From positions 105,387 through 169,386 of the forward strand of contig JAEUPJ010000058.1 of NCBI GenBank assembly GCA_016790285.1: a stretch of 64,000 nucleotides of DNA, read 5' to 3'. A program made the position numbers and the translations under genes. The stretch is from Roseateles sp. (lineage in GTDB: Bacteria; Pseudomonadota; Gammaproteobacteria; Burkholderiales; Burkholderiaceae_C). Positions within the stretch are counted from its first letter, which is position 1. The number at the start of each line of letters is the position of its first letter. Under the pieces are notes generated by a model. It was given only the letters and a program-made list of their open reading frames with translations. It was not told where the DNA came from and did no database searches. Positions 40,304 through 51,418 of the stretch are shown piece by piece.

Positions 40304-40354
40304 GGCCGAGCCGAGTCGGCAACGCTGCTCAGCAGCGCTGGCGACTCGGCTCGG
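40304..40354 (-). terminator. Long-stem hairpin 3' of repeat protein, copy A
   Basis: A 14-bp perfect stem (GCCGAGCCGAGTCG with CGACTCGGCTCGGC) encloses a second stem around CGCTGCT-CAGCAGCG. It lies ~50 nt past the stop of the small gene. The T-run after it is weak (CCTTTG), so it could act as a terminator or an mRNA-stabilising structure. Confidence 0.55.
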
Positions 40355-40400
40355 CGGCGGTGGAAAAAGGCGTCATTCGCATAGGGACTCGACGCCGGGA

Positions 40401-40670
40401 TCAGGCACGCTTGGCGGTGGACTTGGCGGCGGCCAGCGTCTGGCGGGCCAGGGTGGCTTCGCTGTAGCCGACGACGACGACGCGGGGCAGTTGGGCGACT
40501 TCGCGCTGGGCATAGCCGGTGACGACGACGCGCGGCAGCTGGGCGACTTCGCGGGTGGCCTTGCCCGTGACGACGACGCGTTCGAGCTTGACGGTGGGCT
40601 GCGGGGCGGCCTGGGCAGCCACGGCGGCAGCGGTCAGGACGACGGCGGTGAAGACAGTGTTGAGGCTCAT
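40401..40670 (-). CDS. Exported 16-residue-repeat protein, copy A
   Basis: 89 residues: a signal peptide (MSLNTVFTAVVLTAAAVAAQA) of about 21 residues, then three tandem 16-residue units at 31-46, 47-62 and 63-78 of the form RVVVTGxxxREVAQLP, and a short basic Lys/Ala tail. The DNA repeats as 48-bp units. The VVVTG strands recall the TonB-box region of receptors, but no barrel or plug follows. No known family or function is recognised. Its near-identical twin lies at 48301-48570, differing in the mature part by one conservative change (Glu to Asp). Confidence 0.8.
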   Translation of the reverse strand: MSLNTVFTAVVLTAAAVAAQAAPQPTVKLERVVVTGKATREVAQLPRVVVTGYAQREVAQLPRVVVVGYSEATLARQTLAAAKSTAKRA

Positions 40671-40869
40671 GATGGACTCCGTTTCGGTGGGTTGCGAACT
40701 GCGTGATTGCTTGTTCGATGAGGTCAGTTTCGGCAATGACCCGGGGCGCTTCCAGGGGCCTGCGATCAATCGCCAGCCGCGCTGGATGAACTGCAGGTGC
40801 GCTGGATGACCTGCGGGCAGCTCACACCCGCGCAGCCATGCTGCACGGCGCTATCCTGGGGTGGTCCGC

Positions 40870-41886
40870 ATGCCCCGCTCACCCATGACCCTCGCTCGCC
40901 CCGGCGCCCTGAACCTCATCACCGACGTCCCCGGCCTCACGGTCGGCCATGTCACGGACGACACCGTGCGCTCCGGCGCCACAGTGGTGCTGGTGGACGG
41001 CTTCTGGGCTGCGGGGGTGGACGTGCGCGGCGGCGGCCCCAGCACGCGCGAGACCGAGGCACTGGCGCCCGAGAACCTGGTCGGTCGCGTGCACGCCATT
41101 GCGCTGGCCGGCGGCTCGGTCTTTGGCCTGGGCGTGGCGGATGGCGTCGTGGCGGCACTGTCGGCCCAGGGGCGCGGGCTGCAGCTCAGGCCCGGTTCAC
41201 CTGCCATTCCTGTCGTGCCGGCCGCCGTGCTGCACGACCTGTCCAACGGGGGAGACAAGGCCTGGGGCCTGGACCCACCCTACCGCCGCTGGGGCCTGGA
41301 GGCGGTAGAGGCTGCGACTCGCGCGTTCGCCCTGGGCGCCGTGGGCGCCGGGCGCGGTGCGATGGCGGGGCTCAGGCCCGGCGGCATCGGTTCGGCGTCG
41401 CTGGACCTGGGCGATGGCCTGGTGGTGGGCGCGCTGGTGGCGGCCAACCCGATCGGCTCGGCCCACATGCCCGACGGCGAGACGTTTTGGGCCTGGCCGT
41501 TCGAGATCGACGGCGAGTTCGGCGGCCACCGCCCGCAGGGCCATGCGCCGGTCGTCGACCCGATGCCCGCGCTGTCGCGCCTGGCGGCGCTCGGCCGGGC
41601 GCAGGCTGGCGCCAACACCACGCTGGCCGTGGTGGCCTGCAATGCCGACCTGACCACGGCGGAATGCAAGCGCCTGGCCATGATGGCGCAGGACGGCATC
41701 GCCCGGGCCGTGCGGCCGGCGCACACGCCGTTCGATGGCGACACGGTGTTCGCGCTGGCCTGCGGCGCGCAGGCGCTGCCGCAGGGGCCGGACCGCGCCG
41801 TGCAGCTCGGGCGCCTGGGCTCGGCCGCGGCAGACTGCCTGGCCCGGGCCATCGCCCGCGCCGTCTACGAGGCCGGCCGGGCCTGA
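40870..41886 (+). CDS. P1 (DmpA/S58) family peptidase
   Basis: 338 residues from the ATG at 40870; a GTG at 40861 and an ATG at 40885 are alternatives. Family features are LITDVPGLTVGHVTDD, GGGPSTRET, ALAGGSVFGLGVADGV and NTTLAVVACNADLT. In this family the precursor self-cleaves before the nucleophile, here probably in the GANTTLAVV stretch, forming two chains. It should act as an aminopeptidase or amidase. No signal peptide. It overlaps the convergent ABC ATPase gene by 22 nt. Confidence 0.9.
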   Translation: MPRSPMTLARPGALNLITDVPGLTVGHVTDDTVRSGATVVLVDGFWAAGVDVRGGGPSTRETEALAPENLVGRVHAIALAGGSVFGLGVADGVVAALSAQGRGLQLRPGSPAIPVVPAAVLHDLSNGGDKAWGLDPPYRRWGLEAVEAATRAFALGAVGAGRGAMAGLRPGGIGSASLDLGDGLVVGALVAANPIGSAHMPDGETFWAWPFEIDGEFGGHRPQGHAPVVDPMPALSRLAALGRAQAGANTTLAVVACNADLTTAECKRLAMMAQDGIARAVRPAHTPFDGDTVFALACGAQALPQGPDRAVQLGRLGSAAADCLARAIARAVYEAGRA

Positions 41887-43484
41887 GCCCGCTCGGCCAG
41901 CACGCGGGCGAGGTCCGGCGTGGCGGCGAGCAGCGCGGCCGTGACGGCCTCGCGCGGCGCGCGGAAGACCGCATCGGTCGGGCCGCTCTCGATCAGCCGG
42001 CCGGCGTCCATCACGTAGAGGCGGTCGGTGGCCGCGCGCACCACGCCCAGGTCGTGCGTGACGAAGAGCAAGGCGGTGCCTTGCGCGCTGCAGAGGTCGT
42101 CCAGCAGGGTCAGGATCTGCCCGCGCACGCTCACGTCCAGCGCCGACACGGCCTCGTCCAGCACCAGCAGGGCGGGCTCGACGATGAGGGCCCGCGCGAT
42201 GGCCAGCCGCTGGCGCTGGCCGCCGGAGAACTGGTGCGGGAAGCGCTCGGCCATGCCCGCGTCCAGCCCCACGCGCGCGAGCCAGGCCTCGGCGCGGCGG
42301 CGCTGCTCGGCGCGCTCGGGCACCGGGTCGAGCAGGGCCAGCGGCTCGGCCACCAGCTCCCAGGCGCGCCAGCGCGGGTCCAGGCTGCCGGCGGGGTCCT
42401 GGAAGACGATCTGCACCTGCCGCCGCAGCGCCCGCTCCCGCCCGGTGAAGGCCTGGCCCGCCAGCCGCACCTCGCCACCCTGCAGCGGCTCCAGGCCGAG
42501 CAGGGCGCGCAGCAGCGTGGACTTGCCGCTGCCCGAGGCCCCCACCAGGCCGACGCGCTCGCCCGGCTGCACGGTGAGCGACACGCCGTCCAGCGCGCGC
42601 TGCACGGTGGCCCGCCTCAGCAGGCCGCCACCGCGCCGGTATTCGCGCACCAGGGCGCGGGCGTCCAGCAGCGGCGGCCCGGGCGGCAGCGCGGGTGCCG
42701 GGCCGCGCGCGGCGAGCGTGCTGGCCGCCACCAGCGCCGCCGTGGCCGGGGCCTGGGGCGACTGCAGCAGCGCCAGCGCGGGGCCCTGCTCCACGAGGCT
42801 GCCACCCTGCAGCACGGCGATGCGGTCGGCCACGCCCGCCACCAGCGGCAGGTCGTGGCTGATCAGCAGCAGGCTGGTGCCCTGTTCCCGCACCAGCTCG
42901 CGCAGCAGCGCCAGGATCTGGGCCTGGGTGCGCACATCCAGCGCCGTGGTGGGCTCGTCGGCGATCAGCAGGCGCGGGCGCAGGGCCATCGCGATGGCGA
43001 TGACGACGCGCTGGCGCTGGCCGCCGGAGAGTTCGTGCGGGTAGCGCCCCGCCATGCCGGGCAGGCCCACGCGGGCGAGGGCGGCTTCGGCGGCCTGCGC
43101 GGCCTCGGCCCGCGCGGCCGGTCGGTGCGGGCCGTCGTGCAGGCGCAGGGCCTCGGCCACCTGCTGGCCCAGGGTCATGAGCGGGTTCAGCGCGTTCATG
43201 GGCTCCTGGAACACGAGGCCGAGTGCCGCGCCGCGCCGGGCGTCCATCTCGCGCTCGGGCAGCGCCAGCAGCGCCTCGCCCGCGAGCCGCACCTGCCCGC
43301 TCACCTCGGCGCCCGCGGGCAGCAGCCCGGCAATGGCCAGCCCCGTGAGCGACTTGCCCGAGCCCGACTCGCCCACCAGCCCCAGCACCTCGCCGGGCGC
43401 CAGCGTCAGGTCCAGGCCGTGCAGCAGCGTGCGGCCGTGCAGCCGCACGGTCAGGTCCTGCAGTTGCAGCAGCCGCATGCTCAT
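41865..43484 (-). CDS. Peptide ABC transporter, fused tandem ATPase (DppD-DppF type)
   Basis: 539 residues with two complete ABC domains in one chain. Domain 1 has Walker A GESGSGKS, signature LSGGQRQR and Walker [13 protein letters not shown]. Domain 2 has [17 protein letters not shown] and [13 protein letters not shown] ~35-residue Pro/Ala linker joins them. The pattern [16 protein letters not shown] marks the oligopeptide/dipeptide (OppDF/DppDF) group. It energises the adjacent permeases. The start overlaps the second permease stop by ATGA. Confidence 0.93.
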
Positions 43485-44287
43485 CGCGGGCTCCGGTGCG
43501 GGTCGAGCCGCTCGCGCAGGCCGTCGGCCAGCAGGTGGAAGGCCAGCACGGCCAGCGCCACGGCCAGGCCCGGGAACAGGGCCAGCGTGGGGGAGAGGGC
43601 GGTCAGCGTCTGCGCGTCGGCCAGCATGCGGCCCCAGCTCGGCTGCGGCGGCTGCGTGCCCAGGCCGATGTAGGACAGCCCCGTCTCGGCCAGCAGCGCG
43701 AGCGACAGCTGCAGGCTGCCCTGCACGATGAGGCCGCCGGCCACGTTGGGCAGCACATGCTCGCGCGAGATGCGCCGCGGCCCCTTGCCCGCGGTGCGCG
43801 CGGCCAGCACGAACTCGCGCTGCCACAGCGGCAGGGCCAGGCCCCGTGCCGTGCGGGCGAACACGGGGATGTTGAACACGCCCACCGCCAGGATGGCGCT
43901 CACGGCCCCGGGCCCGAGCGCCGTGGTGAGCAGCACCGCCAGCAGCAGCGGCGGGAAGGCGAAGACGATGTCGTTGCCGCGCATGAGCAACTCGTCCAGC
44001 CAGCCCGCGCGCGCCGCCGCCCACAGGCCCAGCGGCACGCCGACGAGGGCGCCCAGCGACACCGCCAGCGCGGCCACGCCCAGCGACGTGGCTGCGCCGC
44101 GCATCAGCAGCGAGAGCACATCGCGCCCGAGGTGGTCGGTGCCCAGCCAGTGGCCGGTGCCGGGCGGCAGCAGCCGCTGGGCGATGGCCAGTTGATCCAG
44201 CGGGGCGGGTGTCCAGACGAGGGAGAGCAGTGCCGTCACCAGGAGGGCGGCTGCGATCAGGCCGCCGGCGAGCAGGCGGCGGTTCAT
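43481..44287 (-). CDS. Peptide ABC transporter permease (DppC type)
   Basis: 268 residues, about six membrane segments. LLPPGTGHWLGTDHLGRDVLS near the start (core GTDHLGRDV) is characteristic of OppC/DppC. The ATPase-contact EAA loop reads EFVLAARTAGKGPRRISREH. It begins by ATGA overlap with the binding-protein/permease fusion and ends by ATGA overlap with the ATPase gene, so stoichiometry is probably set by translational coupling. Confidence 0.93.
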   Translation of the reverse strand: MNRRLLAGGLIAAALLVTALLSLVWTPAPLDQLAIAQRLLPPGTGHWLGTDHLGRDVLSLLMRGAATSLGVAALAVSLGALVGVPLGLWAAARAGWLDELLMRGNDIVFAFPPLLLAVLLTTALGPGAVSAILAVGVFNIPVFARTARGLALPLWQREFVLAARTAGKGPRRISREHVLPNVAGGLIVQGSLQLSLALLAETGLSYIGLGTQPPQPSWGRMLADAQTLTALSPTLALFPGLAVALAVLAFHLLADGLRERLDPHRSPR

Positions 44288-46812
44288 GGCGCGCCTCCGC
44301 GCCGGGCCAGCCGCGGGTCGGCCGCCCGCCCGGCCAGCTCCACCAGCAGCGACACCGTCACGCCCAGGGCCACCAGCACCAGCACCAGGCTTTGCACCAG
44401 TACCAGGTCGTGGGCCGTCACGGCCTGGAACAGCAGCCGGCCCACGCCCGGCAGGAAGAACACGTTCTCCACGATGACCGAGCCGGCCAGCAGATACGCC
44501 GTTTGCAGCCCCAGCAGCGTCAGCACCGGCCCGGCGGCGTTGGGCAGGGCATGGCGCCACAGCACCCGCCAGCGGCTGGCGCCCTTGGCCCGCGCGGTGC
44601 GCAGGAATTCGGCATGCGCCAGCTCGGCCAGCGCCCCGCGCAGCACGCGGGTCAGGATGGCCGCCTGCGGCAGCGCCAGCGCCAGGGCCGGCAGTGCCAG
44701 CGAGCGCAGGCCTTCGGCCAGCCCGGCGTCCCAGCCCGGGAAGCCCCCGGCCGGCACCCAGCGCAAGGTCACGGCGAAGAGCCAGGCGCCCATCACGCCG
44801 AGCCAGAAGTCCAGCACCGACACGCCGAGCTGGCTGAACGTGCCCACCGCACGGTCGGCCACGCTACCCGGGCGGCGCGCCGCCAGCAGCGCGGCCGGCA
44901 GCGCCAGCGCCACGGCGCCCAGCAGCGCCAGCGCGGCCAGGGGCAGGGTCAGCGGCAGCCGCTCGGCCAGCAGTTGCGTGACGGGGACCTGGTAGGTGAG
45001 GCTGCGGCCCAGGTCGCCCTGCAGCAGGTCGCCCACCCAGCGAGCGTAGCGCGTGGGCGCCGGGGCGTTCAGGCCGAGCTGCTCGCGCAGCTGCGCCACG
45101 GCCTGCTCGTCGGCCTGGATGCCCAGCACGTAGCGCGCCGGGTCGCCCGGGGCCACCTGCACGAGGGCGAAGATGATGACGCTGGCCGCCCCGAGCGTGA
45201 GCCCCAGCGACGCCAGCCGCGCGAGCAGCCAGCGCGGCTCGGCGCGGCGAAGCAGCAAGACGAGACCCGCCGCGAGCGCCAGCCCCGCGCCCACGGCGAG
45301 CGCCCGCGGCAGCGCGCCGCGGCCCTGCTGGCGGCCCGCGTCGGCATCGGCCAGGGTGGCCCCGGCCAGTTCCAGGCTGCCCACGGCGTTGGCCTGCACG
45401 CCGGCCAGGCCCGCACGCCGCACGACCAGGCGCGGGTACTGGAACAGGAAGCCGTTGACGGCGTCGTCGCTGAGCTGGCGCTGCAGGGCCTGCAGCGTCT
45501 GGCGGCGCTCGGCCGCGTCGGTCTGCTCGCCCAGCGTGCGCAGCAGGGCCTGCACGCGGTCGCTGTGGTAGCCGAAGTAGTAGTCGTCGCGGCCGTAGAT
45601 GCCGTAGTCCAGCGGCTCGCTGTGTGCGATGACGGTGAGGTCGAAATCGTGGCGCACGAAGACCTGGTCCAGCCACTGCGCCCACTCCAGGTTCTCCACC
45701 CGCGTGCGGATGCCCACCGCCGCGAGCTGCGCCGCCAGGATCTCGCCACCCCGGCGCGCGTAGGCCGTGGGCGGCAGTTTCAGGCTCAGCGTCAGGCCCT
45801 CGCCGAGGCCGGCCTCGGCCAGCAGGCGGCGGGCCTGGGCCGGGTCGTGCGGGCTGCGGCCTGTGAGGTCGACGTAGGCGGCGTGCTTCGGCGAGAAGTG
45901 GCTGCCGATGGGCGTGCCGTAGCCGAACATGGCGCCCTCGATCAGCGCGCTGCGGTCGATGGCCAGCGCGATGGCGCGGCGCACCGCGAGCACGCCCAGC
46001 GGCGCGCGGCGGTGGTTGATGGACAGCAGCGTCTCGCCCTCGCTGATGCCCGCGTCCACGGCGAAGCGCCGGTCCGCGCGGATCTGCGCCAGGTGCTCCG
46101 GCGCGGGGAAGTTGGCGAAGAGGTCGATGTCGCCGGCCATCACCGCGGCGTAGGCGGCGGACGGGTCGGCGATGAAGCGGTAGGTGAGGCCCTCGAGCCG
46201 GGCCTTGCCACCCCAGTAGCCGTCAAAGCGCGTGAGCTCCAGCGCATGGCCGCGCTGCCAGCGCACGAAACGCCAGGGGCCGGTGCCGTTGGGCCGGGTC
46301 GGGTTGGTGGCCACGCTGCCCGGCGCCACCATGACAAAGGCGGCGCTGCCCAGGCTGTGCAGCAGGCTGCCGTCACGCCGGTGCAGGTGGAGGTCCAGCG
46401 TCAGCGGGTCGGGCGCGTCGATGCGCTCGATGGCGGCGAGCAGGCTGCGCTGCGGGTTGCCGGAGCCGCTGGCGCGCGCCCGCTCCAGCGCGAAGCGCGC
46501 GACGCTGGCGTCGAAGGGCGTGCCGTCATGGAAGGCCACGCCGCGGCGCAGGTGAAGCCGCACGCGCAGGCCGTCAGGCGCGATCTCCCAGCGCTCGGCC
46601 AGGCGCGGGCGGGGTTCCCCGTCCTCGGCCAGGGTGACGAGGCCTTCGAACAGGTTGCCGTAGACCACCTCGCTGATGGGCGCGGCGGCGCCCACGGTCG
46701 GGTCCAGCAGCGGCGGCTCCAGCTGCAGCGCCACGCGCAGCGTGCCCGCCAGCGCCGGCCCGCACAGCGCGAGCAGCCAGGCCAGTGCCCAGGCTTGGAA
46801 CAGCCGCCTCAT
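44284..46812 (-). CDS. Fused peptide-binding protein and DppB-type permease
   Basis: 842 residues in one uninterrupted frame from the ATG at 46812. Residues 1-22 form a signal sequence or anchor (LFQAWALAWLLALCGPALAG). About 25-485 is a complete family-5 binding domain (PPLLDPTVGAAAPISEVVYG, NPTRPNGTGPWRF, YGRDDYYFGYHS). An extra hydrophobic segment (~503-520, ALAVGAGLALAAGLVLLL) and an RR-rich turn follow. About 525-842 is a full DppB permease with APGDPA and the EAA loop EFLRTARAKGASRWRVLWRH. The extra segment would return the chain to the cytoplasm, so the topology works. Start and stop both overlap neighbours by ATGA. Confidence 0.9.
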   Translation of the reverse strand: MRRLFQAWALAWLLALCGPALAGTLRVALQLEPPLLDPTVGAAAPISEVVYGNLFEGLVTLAEDGEPRPRLAERWEIAPDGLRVRLHLRRGVAFHDGTPFDASVARFALERARASGSGNPQRSLLAAIERIDAPDPLTLDLHLHRRDGSLLHSLGSAAFVMVAPGSVATNPTRPNGTGPWRFVRWQRGHALELTRFDGYWGGKARLEGLTYRFIADPSAAYAAVMAGDIDLFANFPAPEHLAQIRADRRFAVDAGISEGETLLSINHRRAPLGVLAVRRAIALAIDRSALIEGAMFGYGTPIGSHFSPKHAAYVDLTGRSPHDPAQARRLLAEAGLGEGLTLSLKLPPTAYARRGGEILAAQLAAVGIRTRVENLEWAQWLDQVFVRHDFDLTVIAHSEPLDYGIYGRDDYYFGYHSDRVQALLRTLGEQTDAAERRQTLQALQRQLSDDAVNGFLFQYPRLVVRRAGLAGVQANAVGSLELAGATLADADAGRQQGRGALPRALAVGAGLALAAGLVLLLRRAEPRWLLARLASLGLTLGAASVIIFALVQVAPGDPARYVLGIQADEQAVAQLREQLGLNAPAPTRYARWVGDLLQGDLGRSLTYQVPVTQLLAERLPLTLPLAALALLGAVALALPAALLAARRPGSVADRAVGTFSQLGVSVLDFWLGVMGAWLFAVTLRWVPAGGFPGWDAGLAEGLRSLALPALALALPQAAILTRVLRGALAELAHAEFLRTARAKGASRWRVLWRHALPNAAGPVLTLLGLQTAYLLAGSVIVENVFFLPGVGRLLFQAVTAHDLVLVQSLVLVLVALGVTVSLLVELAGRAADPRLARRGGAP

Positions 46813-48167
46813 GCGGCGCGGCAGGCGGCTGCCAGGCCCGGCAGGCCGAGCGCGTCGTACAGCGTAGCCAGGCGCCGGTTGACGGGCACGTCGTGCGGGT
46901 CGGCCAGGCGGCGCAGCTCCAGCGCCTGCTGGGCGTCGCGGTGCTTGCCGGCGCGGGTGGCGGCGTCGATGTGCAGTTGCGCGAACAGGTCGCGCTGCGC
47001 GTGGCTGCCGCCGATGCGCACGAGGCGCGGCAGGCCCTGGGACAAGGCGGCGTCGGCGGCTGCCGCGTCTCCGCGGGCCAGCGCGAGCAGGCCGCGCGCG
47101 GTGGGCAGGGCGGCGTCGTGCCAGGCGACGCGCGCCTCGCCCTGGCTGGCCTCGGCCCGGGTGGTGATGGCGGCCAGCAGGGTGTCGGCTTCGGGCCGGC
47201 CGGCGCGGGCCAGGCCGTACAGGTAGAGCAGGCTCAGGAAGGGCTCGGTCGTGTCGGTGGCGCGCGCCTGCAGGTGCTCGGCCAGGGCCTGCCAGCGCGG
47301 GCCGACGTCCACGCCCACCCACTCCAGCCGCGCGAGCAGCTGCACGGCGCCGATCTGGTCCTGCGAGTAGCCGGGCGACACGCCCCAGACCTGGCGGTCG
47401 TACAGGGCCAGGGCCTCGTCGCCCCGCCCGCGGGCCAGGTAGAACACCGCGAGGTGCCACCACAGGTGGGTGAGCATGAAGGAGTTGAGATCCGTCCAGG
47501 TGGGCTGCACGCCCTCCAGGAAGCGCGTGCCTTCGTCCACCCGGCCGCGCGTGAGCAGCACATGGGCCAGCGCATGCTGGGCCCAGGGCTCGCGGCGCTG
47601 CAGCGTGAGGGCCAGGCGGGCGGCGGCTTCGGCTTCGTCCAGGCGGTGGGCCTGCTCGTAGGCGAACGCGGCCATGCCGTGGGCGTGGGCGTTGTGGGCA
47701 TTGGCCGGCAGCACGGCCAGGATGGCGCGCAGCATGGCCGGGGCGTCGCCCCGGTTGAAGGCCAGGTACTGGGCCAGCTTGACGACGGCCAGGTCGTGGG
47801 GGAACTCGCCCGCCAGTGCTGCGGCGCGGGATTCTGTGGCCGCGGTGTCGCCCGCGACCCAGGCAGCGAGCAGCTCGACGTGCGCCTGCTCGCGCCGATG
47901 CGCGGGCGAGGTGCCGGGCCGGCGGGCCTGCCGGGCGGCGTCCAGGAAGGGTCGGGCACGCGCAGGCGCCTCGGGGGCCTCCAGGAACATCCACAGCCAG
48001 CCCGCGAACACCTGCGCCAGCACGGCGCCGGGGAAGGCCTGGGCGGTGGGCAGGATGCGCTCGGCGCGCGTTTCGTAGGCGAGCAGGCCGCCGGTGAAGT
48101 CGTTCAGCCCCGCGAGCAGCGCGGGGTCATCGGCCAGGACGGGGTTGCCGAGTTCGTCGTGTGACAT
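46809..48167 (-). CDS. TTC38-like tetratricopeptide protein
   Basis: 452 residues, almost entirely helical repeats, without signal peptide. The pattern AHGMAAFAYEQAHRLDEAEA, then HALAHVLLTRGRVDEGTRFLEG, and a conserved TDLNSFMLTHLWWHLAVFYL stretch, resembles the TTC38 family found in bacteria and animals. Function in bacteria is not established. Its stop overlaps the fusion-permease start by ATGA, making it the first gene of the peptide-importer operon. A role in handling the imported substrate is inference. Confidence 0.82.
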   Translation of the reverse strand: MSHDELGNPVLADDPALLAGLNDFTGGLLAYETRAERILPTAQAFPGAVLAQVFAGWLWMFLEAPEAPARARPFLDAARQARRPGTSPAHRREQAHVELLAAWVAGDTAATESRAAALAGEFPHDLAVVKLAQYLAFNRGDAPAMLRAILAVLPANAHNAHAHGMAAFAYEQAHRLDEAEAAARLALTLQRREPWAQHALAHVLLTRGRVDEGTRFLEGVQPTWTDLNSFMLTHLWWHLAVFYLARGRGDEALALYDRQVWGVSPGYSQDQIGAVQLLARLEWVGVDVGPRWQALAEHLQARATDTTEPFLSLLYLYGLARAGRPEADTLLAAITTRAEASQGEARVAWHDAALPTARGLLALARGDAAAADAALSQGLPRLVRIGGSHAQRDLFAQLHIDAATRAGKHRDAQQALELRRLADPHDVPVNRRLATLYDALGLPGLAAACRAA

Positions 48168-48203: not shown

Positions 48204-48254
48204 GGCCGAGCCGAGTCGTCAACGCTGCTCAGCAGCGCTGGCGACTCGGCTCGG
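48204..48254 (-). terminator. Long-stem hairpin 3' of repeat protein, copy B
   Basis: The same nested hairpin as in copy A with one base change outside the main stem. It lies between the start of the TPR gene and the stop of the repeat-protein gene, and so may insulate the importer operon from read-through. Confidence 0.55.
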
Positions 48255-48300
48255 CGGCGGTGGAAAAAGGCGTCATTCGCATAGGGACTCGACGCCGGGA

Positions 48301-48570
48301 TCAGGCACGCTTGGCGGTGGACTTGGCAGCAGCCAGCGTCTGGCGAGCCAGGGTGGCTTCGCTGTAGCCGACGACGACGACGCGGGGCAGTTGGGCGACG
48401 TCGCGCTGGGCATAGCCGGTGACGACGACGCGCGGCAGCTGGGCGACTTCGCGGGTGGCCTTGCCCGTGACGACGACGCGTTCGAGCTTGACGGTGGGCT
48501 GCGGGGCGGCCTGGGCGGCAACGGCGGCAGCGGTCAGGACGACGGCGGTGAAGACAGTGTTGAGGCTCAT
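48301..48570 (-). CDS. Exported 16-residue-repeat protein, copy B
   Basis: 89 residues, identical to copy A except for one residue (QRD in place of QRE in the second repeat). Signal peptide, three 16-residue units and basic tail are conserved, and most DNA differences are silent, which suggests selection on the protein. It lies directly upstream of the TTC38-like gene on the same strand, separated by the long hairpin. Confidence 0.8.
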   Translation of the reverse strand: MSLNTVFTAVVLTAAAVAAQAAPQPTVKLERVVVTGKATREVAQLPRVVVTGYAQRDVAQLPRVVVVGYSEATLARQTLAAAKSTAKRA

Positions 48571-48790
48571 GATGGGCTCCGTTTCGGTGGGTTGCGAACT
48601 GCGTGATTGCTGGTTCGATGAAGTCAGTTTCGGCAATGGACGCGGGCCCTTCCAGGCGGCTGCGATGAATTGCAGGAAGGGCGCGACGAGCCGCAGATTC
48701 AGAGGACAGCCGACGTGCAAATGACCGCGGCCCGCGCCGCCGCGCTGCCTACACTGGCCCGCACCACCACAGCCTGAGAGGCACGACACC
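48571..48790. other. Intergenic, divergent starts
   Basis: It contains the upstream part of duplicated unit B (to 48670) and ~120 bp of unique sequence before the DUF4259/DUF4253 gene. No further gene or RNA is seen. A GAGAGGC stretch at about 48776-48782 serves as the likely ribosome binding site for 48791. Confidence 0.4.
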
Positions 48791-50782: not shown

Positions 50783-51418
50783 TCAGTCGACCTGCAGGCC
50801 CAGGCGCGCCACGTCGCCGCGGCCCTGGCGCACCAGCACGGGCTCGTAGCCCTGGCTCAGGTCAAGCACCGTGGTGGGTTGCGCCGGGCAGGCGCCGGCG
50901 TCCAGCACGAACTGCAGCTGACGGTCCAGCCGCGCGCACACGTCGGCGGCATCGTTCATGGGCTCGGTCTCGCCGGGCGGGATCAGCGTGGTGGACAGCA
51001 GCGGCTCGCCGAAGAGGGCCAGCAGCTCCTGGATGACCTTGTGCTCGGGCACGCGCAGCCCGATCGTGCGCCGGCTCGGGTGCGACAGGCGGCGCGGCAC
51101 TTCCTTGGTGGCCGGCAGGATGAAGGTGTAGGGCCCGGGCGTGGCCAGCTTGAGCAGGCGGTACTGGCGGTTGTCGACCATCGCGTAGGTGGCGAGCTCC
51201 GAGAGGTCGCGGCACAGCAGCGTCAGGTGGTGCTTGTCGTCCACGCCCCGCACGCGGCGCAGCGCCTCGGCGGCGGCCTTGTCGTTGAGGTGGCAGACGA
51301 AGGCGTAGCTGGAGTCGGTGGGCACCGCGCCGATGCCGCCGGCCTGGAGCATCTGGGCGCACTGGCGCAGGAAGCGCGGCTGCGGGTTCTCGGGGTGGAC
51401 TTCAAAGAGCTGGGCCAT
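50783..51418 (-). CDS. YciO/YrdC-family L-threonylcarbamoyladenylate synthase-like protein
   Basis: 211 residues, one YrdC domain: GGIGAVPTDSSYAFVCHLND with the PTDS motif, the KHHLTLLCRDLSELATYA block, TPGPYTFILPATKEVPRR and RTIGLRVPEH. Length and the KHH sequence place it with YciO rather than TsaC. TsaC makes threonylcarbamoyl-AMP for tRNA t6A; YciO has weaker activity. It is followed upstream by the PHP phosphatase gene, the usual yciO-yciV pairing. Confidence 0.9.
   Translation of the reverse strand: MAQLFEVHPENPQPRFLRQCAQMLQAGGIGAVPTDSSYAFVCHLNDKAAAEALRRVRGVDDKHHLTLLCRDLSELATYAMVDNRQYRLLKLATPGPYTFILPATKEVPRRLSHPSRRTIGLRVPEHKVIQELLALFGEPLLSTTLIPPGETEPMNDAADVCARLDRQLQFVLDAGACPAQPTTVLDLSQGYEPVLVRQGRGDVARLGLQVD

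Follow-up and report, generated by a model that had tools for sequence, protein, structure and literature searches.

Among the closest described relatives of the system reported here is the dipeptide importer DppABCDF of E. coli (8z1v-8z1z), an ATP-binding cassette (ABC) importer of the peptide/nickel class built from a family-5 binding protein, two different permeases and two ATPases. In such importers the free form of the binding protein is the textbook case, and according to the excerpted text of PMC12136057 the Dpp translocator becomes active only when both DppA and ATP are present. Covalent fusions of binding domains to permeases are established for importers of the GlnPQ and OpuA types, as a first-pass annotation of the DNA studied here had stated and as excerpts of PMC8025302 and PMC11065425 bear out, and equally for the thiol importer EgtUBC (excerpt of PMC9732360); they are said in general to occur, 'sometimes' also in Gram-negatives (excerpts of PMC3295651; PMC9045158, PMC7731109). 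Among the leading literature matches, which left subscription journals mostly outside their scope, we found no description of a fused binding domain in the peptide/nickel class. A 2002 review of fused importers reportedly treated the amino-acid and betaine families. Here, we describe a locus of Roseateles sp. in which a binding protein of this class and a permease share one polypeptide. The window, that is, the whole stretch analysed, comprises 64,000 nucleotides (assembly GCA_016790285.1, contig JAEUPJ010000058.1, positions 105,387 to 169,386).

A binding protein and a permease in one reading frame

The fusion gene is a single frame of 842 amino acids (aa) on the minus strand (842 codons plus stop, from 46812 to 44284) without internal stop, the plus-strand reading of 44284..46812 being meaningless. 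Its product very probably serves a functional peptide/nickel-class importer, one of whose permease subunits has a substrate-binding protein covalently built in. Its parts are as follows:

44284..46812, minus strand: SBP_bac_5 / DppB-NikB-type permease fusion, 842 aa (frame, Pfam, NCBIfam, relatives, AlphaFold2)
46744..46812, minus strand: probable signal peptide, residues 1-23, ending in GPALA before a G (cleavage site judged by eye; low-confidence helix 2-14 in the model)
45355..46743, minus strand: family-5 substrate-binding domain, residues 24-486 (Pfam, AlphaFold2, fold search)
45307..45354, minus strand: flexible linker, residues about 487-502 (predicted local distance difference test score, pLDDT, <50 at 491-502)
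45244..45306, minus strand: extra membrane helix, residues 503-523, found in fused proteins only (comparison, AlphaFold2, charge, shuffles)
44287..45237, minus strand: permease part, residues 526-842 (Pfam, NCBIfam, AlphaFold2)

SBP_bac_5 (PF00496) is matched at residues 66-397 with 253.1 bits for a cut-off of 32.4 (E 5.9e-75), and is the sole binding-protein family that Pfam detects in the fusion, with no match to an amino-acid or glycine-betaine binding family. In the permease part, BPD_transp_1_N (PF19300; residues 527-626, E 4.4e-10) and BPD_transp_1 (residues 638-836, E 2e-28) both exceed their gathering scores. In NCBIfam, the fusion reaches none of the equivalog cut-offs for DppB, NikB, GsiC, Opp2B or GsiB: the permease part scores 253.8 bits with Opp2B (cut-off 350), 216.4 with NikB (447), 187.4 with GsiC (463) and 154.9 with DppB (590), and the binding part scores highest with GsiB (139.7, cut-off 594), ahead of DppA (110.1, likewise below its cut-off). 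'DppA' and 'DppB' are accordingly to be read, for the parts of this protein, as class names suggested by similarity and not as assignments. The claim that a DppA-type domain and a DppB permease lie in one 842-residue frame thus stands for the coordinates and for the completeness of both domains, whereas the profiles prefer GsiB and Opp2B/NikB to the names first proposed.

Both halves resemble proteins that occur as separate chains. In a phmmer search against the PDB, the best 60 of 85 rows match the halves to separate chains (e.g. DppB 8z1v and AgaA 6hlx), and in a Foldseek search all 50 chains among the matches listed are binding proteins. The binding part matches E. coli YliB (1uqw, template-modelling score 0.89 by target length), which we take to be GsiB, as well as DppA (1dpe) and AgaA.

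Between the two halves, the 49-aa stretch of the linker contains a hydrophobic segment whose best 18-residue Kyte-Doolittle (KD) value, 2.48, was reached in 0.14% of 5000 same-letter shuffles. AlphaFold2, run on the fusion with an alignment of 40 fused sequences, returned a model with a mean pLDDT of 84 and a predicted template-modelling score of 0.80, in which a two-lobed binding domain extends to about residue 486, confidence is low at 491-502, and a helix at 503-523 is followed by a break and then by permease helix 1 at 526-553. The segment noticed at about 503-520 in the first-pass annotation is therefore above shuffled expectation, and the structure prediction that it had proposed keeps the corresponding helix apart from the first helix of the permease.

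Fused and split relatives

Relatives were sought in genome_contigs (one genome per species, 84,980 species) with the fusion as query, which favours fused proteins in the ranking, and the best 80 of 180 were kept. Of these, 45 have both parts in a single frame, whereas 35 are unfused; together with 30 loci of a same-genus scan (n=110), 50 are fused, 53 have a binding-protein match without fusion and 7 have no such match. The permease of the 35 unfused relatives lies at most 360 nt downstream in 28 cases and 1.8-3.0 kb downstream in three (L089, L091, L099), and four (L087, L103, L107, L108) have no permease within the stretch examined. Three entries (L002, L003, L004) were dropped as likely to be the same genomes as L069, L031 and L032, which leaves 47 distinct fused proteins including that of the window, three of them ending at contig ends (L038, L080, L081). 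Fused proteins occur in Caulobacter, Brevundimonas, Phenylobacterium, Paucibacter, Roseateles and Rhodocyclus, and in gammaproteobacterial metagenome-assembled genomes (MAGs); split forms include Rhodobacteraceae, Granulosicoccus and SAR116. One fused entry, L032, is a MAG titled Methylotenera, but it and G013, from the window's genus, are apparently one genome, which makes its title or binning look doubtful.

A sequencing or assembly error, in which a lost stop or base had joined two genes, could not have been judged from a single genome, and split orthologues do exist. However, the in-frame joint recurs across alpha-, beta- and gammaproteobacterial lineages, in MAGs as well as in named isolates, and the hydrophobic segment of the linker is absent from split genes. 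Judged from these sequences, the joint is inherited, and its conservation rules out a lost stop codon or an assembly artefact, to which we give a negligible probability. This supports the working fusion argued for at the outset over a lost stop, as homologues are by no means always split at the joint; the architecture, which the first-pass annotation had proposed to seek across Burkholderiales, is found there and also beyond, in Caulobacter, Brevundimonas, Phenylobacterium, Rhodocyclus and gammaproteobacterial MAGs.

The split orthologues are, from their sequences, a natural control, namely a binding protein and a permease without the extra helix. Their operon order is mostly that of the window, often with an S58 peptidase as neighbour, and they are 47-56% identical to it in the binding part and 42-54% in the permease; they differ in that the binding protein is separate and has no hydrophobic segment at its end. 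Indeed, split binding proteins stop at a domain-ending motif (e.g. ANDLTGVSW), where the linker of the fusion begins, and in the 53 unfused loci the top 19-residue hydropathy within the C-terminal 60 residues of the binding protein is only 0.01 to 1.31. Split permeases mostly begin at their own first helix, their start codon lying a few residues ahead of the position that corresponds to residue 527-532. All 47 fused proteins, by contrast, carry a hydrophobic segment in the linker (18-residue KD 1.58-2.96), with 49 to 73 residues between the columns of residues 477 and 526, and this segment beats own-letter shuffles at p<0.05 in 37 of the 47. Lysines and arginines (K+R) are more numerous after the segment than before it (mean 2.85 versus 1.19; higher in 42/47, equal in 5/47, lower in 0/47). 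Hydrophobicity and charge bias fit a helix running out-to-in, and its confinement to fused proteins supports the topology-correcting role that had been ascribed to it.

The fused chain might also be translated as one and work as two, through a cut in the linker or an internal start of the permease giving a free binding protein. Residues 491-502 have the very low confidence seen in disordered stretches, the window has in-frame GTG and TTG at codons 507 and 519, and an in-frame ATG falls within the columns of residues 485-540 in 18 of the 47 fused rows. On the other hand, 10/47 rows have no ATG, GTG or TTG at all in those columns, a Shine-Dalgarno-like word precedes such a codon in only 2/47, and both the helix and the inside-positive charge would be needless in a chain meant to part. 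An internal start at the joint, not being conserved among the 47 rows, was rejected, and we consider this alternative improbable as a whole.

Full-length matches in one frame were found in 5/20 genomes of the genus and in 3/299 genomes drawn from the family (E limit 1e-130); these counts, like those for class and phylum given below, include the window's genome, and the scans of family, class and phylum scored only two or three candidates per genome. The trait is conserved at roughly 50% identity, but its occurrence is rare and its distribution patchy. Whereas G688, G811 and G908 proved truly fused, several apparent fusions did not: seven long open frames of the phylum scan (G612, G442, G590, G394, G374, G489, G582) are split at the DNA level, with a stop after the binding protein; so are three full-span matches with stops (G341, G564, G477) and one from the same-genus scan (G044), in which a stop ends the binding protein. 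Other phylum-scan matches spanning both parts (about 29-34% identity) each contain at least one stop, and for one candidate of the family scan (G756) the stretch fetched holds no permease. Among plasmid records, 3824 match; the 30 listed all do so as two pieces, 17 of them annotating a separate binding protein and permease and 13 having no annotation there.

Rows that lack either part or are cut were excluded from the trees, as were the distant loci L006-L012 and L014-L030. With 75 rows, a quick tree requires two changes, with Woeseiaceae L044 placed among split rows, and a single fused clade is not rejected by the approximately unbiased test (p 0.39). A site-mixture model was also applied to a wider choice of taxa from which near copies had been thinned (74 rows, 38 of them fused), and in the resulting tree all fused rows fall on one side of a branch; the fused clade is nested among split rows (outgroup L013), with a Shimodaira-Hasegawa-like approximate likelihood-ratio (SH-aLRT) value of 63.7 and long-branch warnings. 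These trees lend weak support to the simplest reading, a single gain of the fusion from a split ancestor.

Operon, neighbours and substrate

The genes around the fusion and the repeats that bracket them are:

43481..44287, minus strand: second permease (DppC/NikC type), start overlapping the stop of the fusion (Pfam, NCBIfam)
41865..43484, minus strand: tandem ATPase, two ABC_tran domains in one chain (DppD+DppF type), start overlapping the stop of the second permease
40861..41886, plus strand: peptidase of family S58 (DmpA/BapA type), convergent (Pfam)
46809..48167, minus strand: TPR-like open reading frame (ORF), 452 aa, stop overlapping the start of the fusion (weak TPR matches below cut-off)
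40304..40773, minus strand: direct repeat 1, 470 bp, gene of an 89-aa small secreted-looking protein (repeat comparison)
48204..48673, minus strand: direct repeat 2, 96% identical to repeat 1, bracketing the module (repeat comparison)

The minus-strand operon runs from the TPR-like ORF through the fusion and the second permease to the tandem ATPase, and every junction is an ATGA overlap (TPR-like ORF/fusion at 46812-46809, fusion/second permease at 44287-44284). A scan for promoters and terminators found nothing. The operon has the components of the peptide/nickel class, namely a binding protein of family 5, a pair of unlike permeases, of which the B type carries PF19300, and two ATPase domains; only the separation of the binding protein from the permease, as in solved members, is missing from the fusion. 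By its sequence the system is a homologous variant of the class and not a standard member. The tandem ATPase is apparently one chain in split loci too, where it gives single long matches, and so looks independent of the binding-protein fusion.

The S58 peptidase, and the M20-type peptidase of many related loci, point to peptides or related amides. An S58 gene lies anywhere nearby in 25/35 fused and 11/21 split loci with both flanks, and an M20-type gene upstream in 16/40 fused versus 21/25 split loci. From context alone, the most likely substrate, at slightly better than even odds, is a small or modified peptide acted on by the adjacent S58 peptidase. The tethered importer might instead work on a metal chelate or another non-peptide solute: the permeases score best, below cut-off, with the nickel types Opp2B/NikB for the fusion and Opp2C/NikC for the second permease, and the tandem ATPase passes the cut-offs of NikD and NikE, though its two domains sum into one score and it also passes that of the dipeptide model PRK11308. 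Against this, the highest-scoring model for the binding part is GsiB (glutathione), its best fold match is YliB, and the peptidase genes adjoin; we regard a non-peptide substrate as rather unlikely.

A TonB-dependent receptor lies upstream in 29/40 fused loci with at least 4.5 kb of upstream sequence versus 0/25 split loci, for probes that came from fused loci and so favour finding receptors there. Fused loci are related by descent, and lineages rich in receptors may carry them for unconnected reasons; the association is hence a hint, which can be tested, and not a test of correlation. No such receptor lies upstream in the window, and the window's genome has no close copy of the L069 receptor (best match 33% identity). 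The TPR-like ORF is upstream in 16/40 fused and 0/25 split loci, and elsewhere in 2/21 split loci. Clustering of 81 loci also showed an alpha/beta hydrolase gene in 17 fused loci (e.g. L058:2534-3511, L077:2402-3535) and in 0 split ones.

The block from the S58 to the TPR-like gene lies between the 470-bp direct repeats, each of which encodes a protein of 89 aa in which VVVTG/VVVVG motifs recur; these motifs may resemble TonB-box-like stretches. An imperfect palindrome follows the 89-aa gene in both repeats. A longer frame of 219 aa that contains this protein has no Pfam match, and the family occurs in 19/20 genomes of the genus, each with at least two matches, many of them weak. In the relative G019 (one genome, with 6% contamination per database), both flanking genes surround a single repeat copy with no transporter between, and the transporter cluster is on another contig; in the relative G017, the cluster, with a TonB receptor, has as neighbours the small gene and a gene homologous to that at 50783-51418. 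The block thus either arrived at the site in the window or was lost from the corresponding site in G019. The TonB receptor was probably lost at the window locus.

Proposed mechanism and comparison with known importers

In the arrangement that we favour, export of the binding domain would be directed by the N-terminal signal. Some 16 residues of linker would connect this domain to the added helix, which would cross from periplasm to cytoplasm, and the permease would then have its N-terminus on the inner side, as expected of its split relatives. A fusion that would otherwise invert the permease would thereby be rescued by one added helix. Together with the tandem ATPase and the C permease, which is a protein of its own, the fused B chain would make up an importer of three polypeptides. 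Its one binding domain would be held captive, in place of a free pool; tethering would exchange diffusion for a high local concentration and fix a 1:1 ratio. As the translocator of E. coli Dpp needs binding protein and ATP together (excerpt of PMC12136057), such a fixed ratio would be mechanistically sensible.

Several observations weigh against the tethered importer. The hydrophobic segment is not above own-letter shuffles at p<0.05 in 10/47 fused rows, and the charge difference in the window itself is small (K+R 3 before versus 4 after the segment). The model is moderately confident for the extra helix (block means 60, 76 and 78 over 501-530) and for part of the permease (63-66 over 661-690), and proteolysis may release the binding domain. 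The fusion is found in 1/274 genomes drawn from the class (E limit 1e-100) and 2/398 from the phylum (E limit 1e-75), a rarity which argues that it is not a generally favoured solution. Finally, the best permease profiles being nickel types, the substrate may not be a peptide.

More tentatively still, the fused proteins could represent a distinct, horizontally moving peptide-class module with one tethered domain per translocator, usually accompanied by its own TonB-dependent receptor. The tether would then mirror, at the inner membrane, active uptake across the outer one: substrate brought in by the TonB-dependent receptor would be captured at the inner membrane itself and not by binding proteins free in the periplasm. 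The arrangement would have evolved once, by the addition of one helix between two existing genes. In any case, the fusion asks what tethering changes, and fused and split orthologues at about 50% identity, in much the same operon, offer a natural experiment on this effect. The asymmetric design, with one tethered domain and two different permeases, makes the number of binding domains per translocator directly testable.

Compared with E. coli Dpp, in which DppA is separate, the system described here joins the binding protein to the B permease through an added helix and unites D and F in one chain. GlnPQ of Lactococcus also has binding domains covalently joined to the permease, with a linker of 19 aa (excerpt of PMC8025302), but is a homodimer of the amino-acid family with two binding domains per chain. 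OpuA of Lactococcus carries its binding domain on an 11-residue linker with a hydrophobic anchoring sequence (excerpt of PMC11065425), which provides a precedent for the extra-helix solution; it differs in having two domains per transporter, another binding-domain family and glycine betaine as substrate. EgtUBC of Streptococcus pneumoniae likewise unites permease and binding domain in one chain, but is a Gram-positive system for ergothioneine, termed a type II transporter (excerpt of PMC9732360). Importers of the GlnPQ and OpuA types have one kind of permease, in a homodimer, with two or four binding domains; the Roseateles operon encodes two different permeases, only one of which is fused, which argues against a homodimer of this kind and for a single tethered domain.

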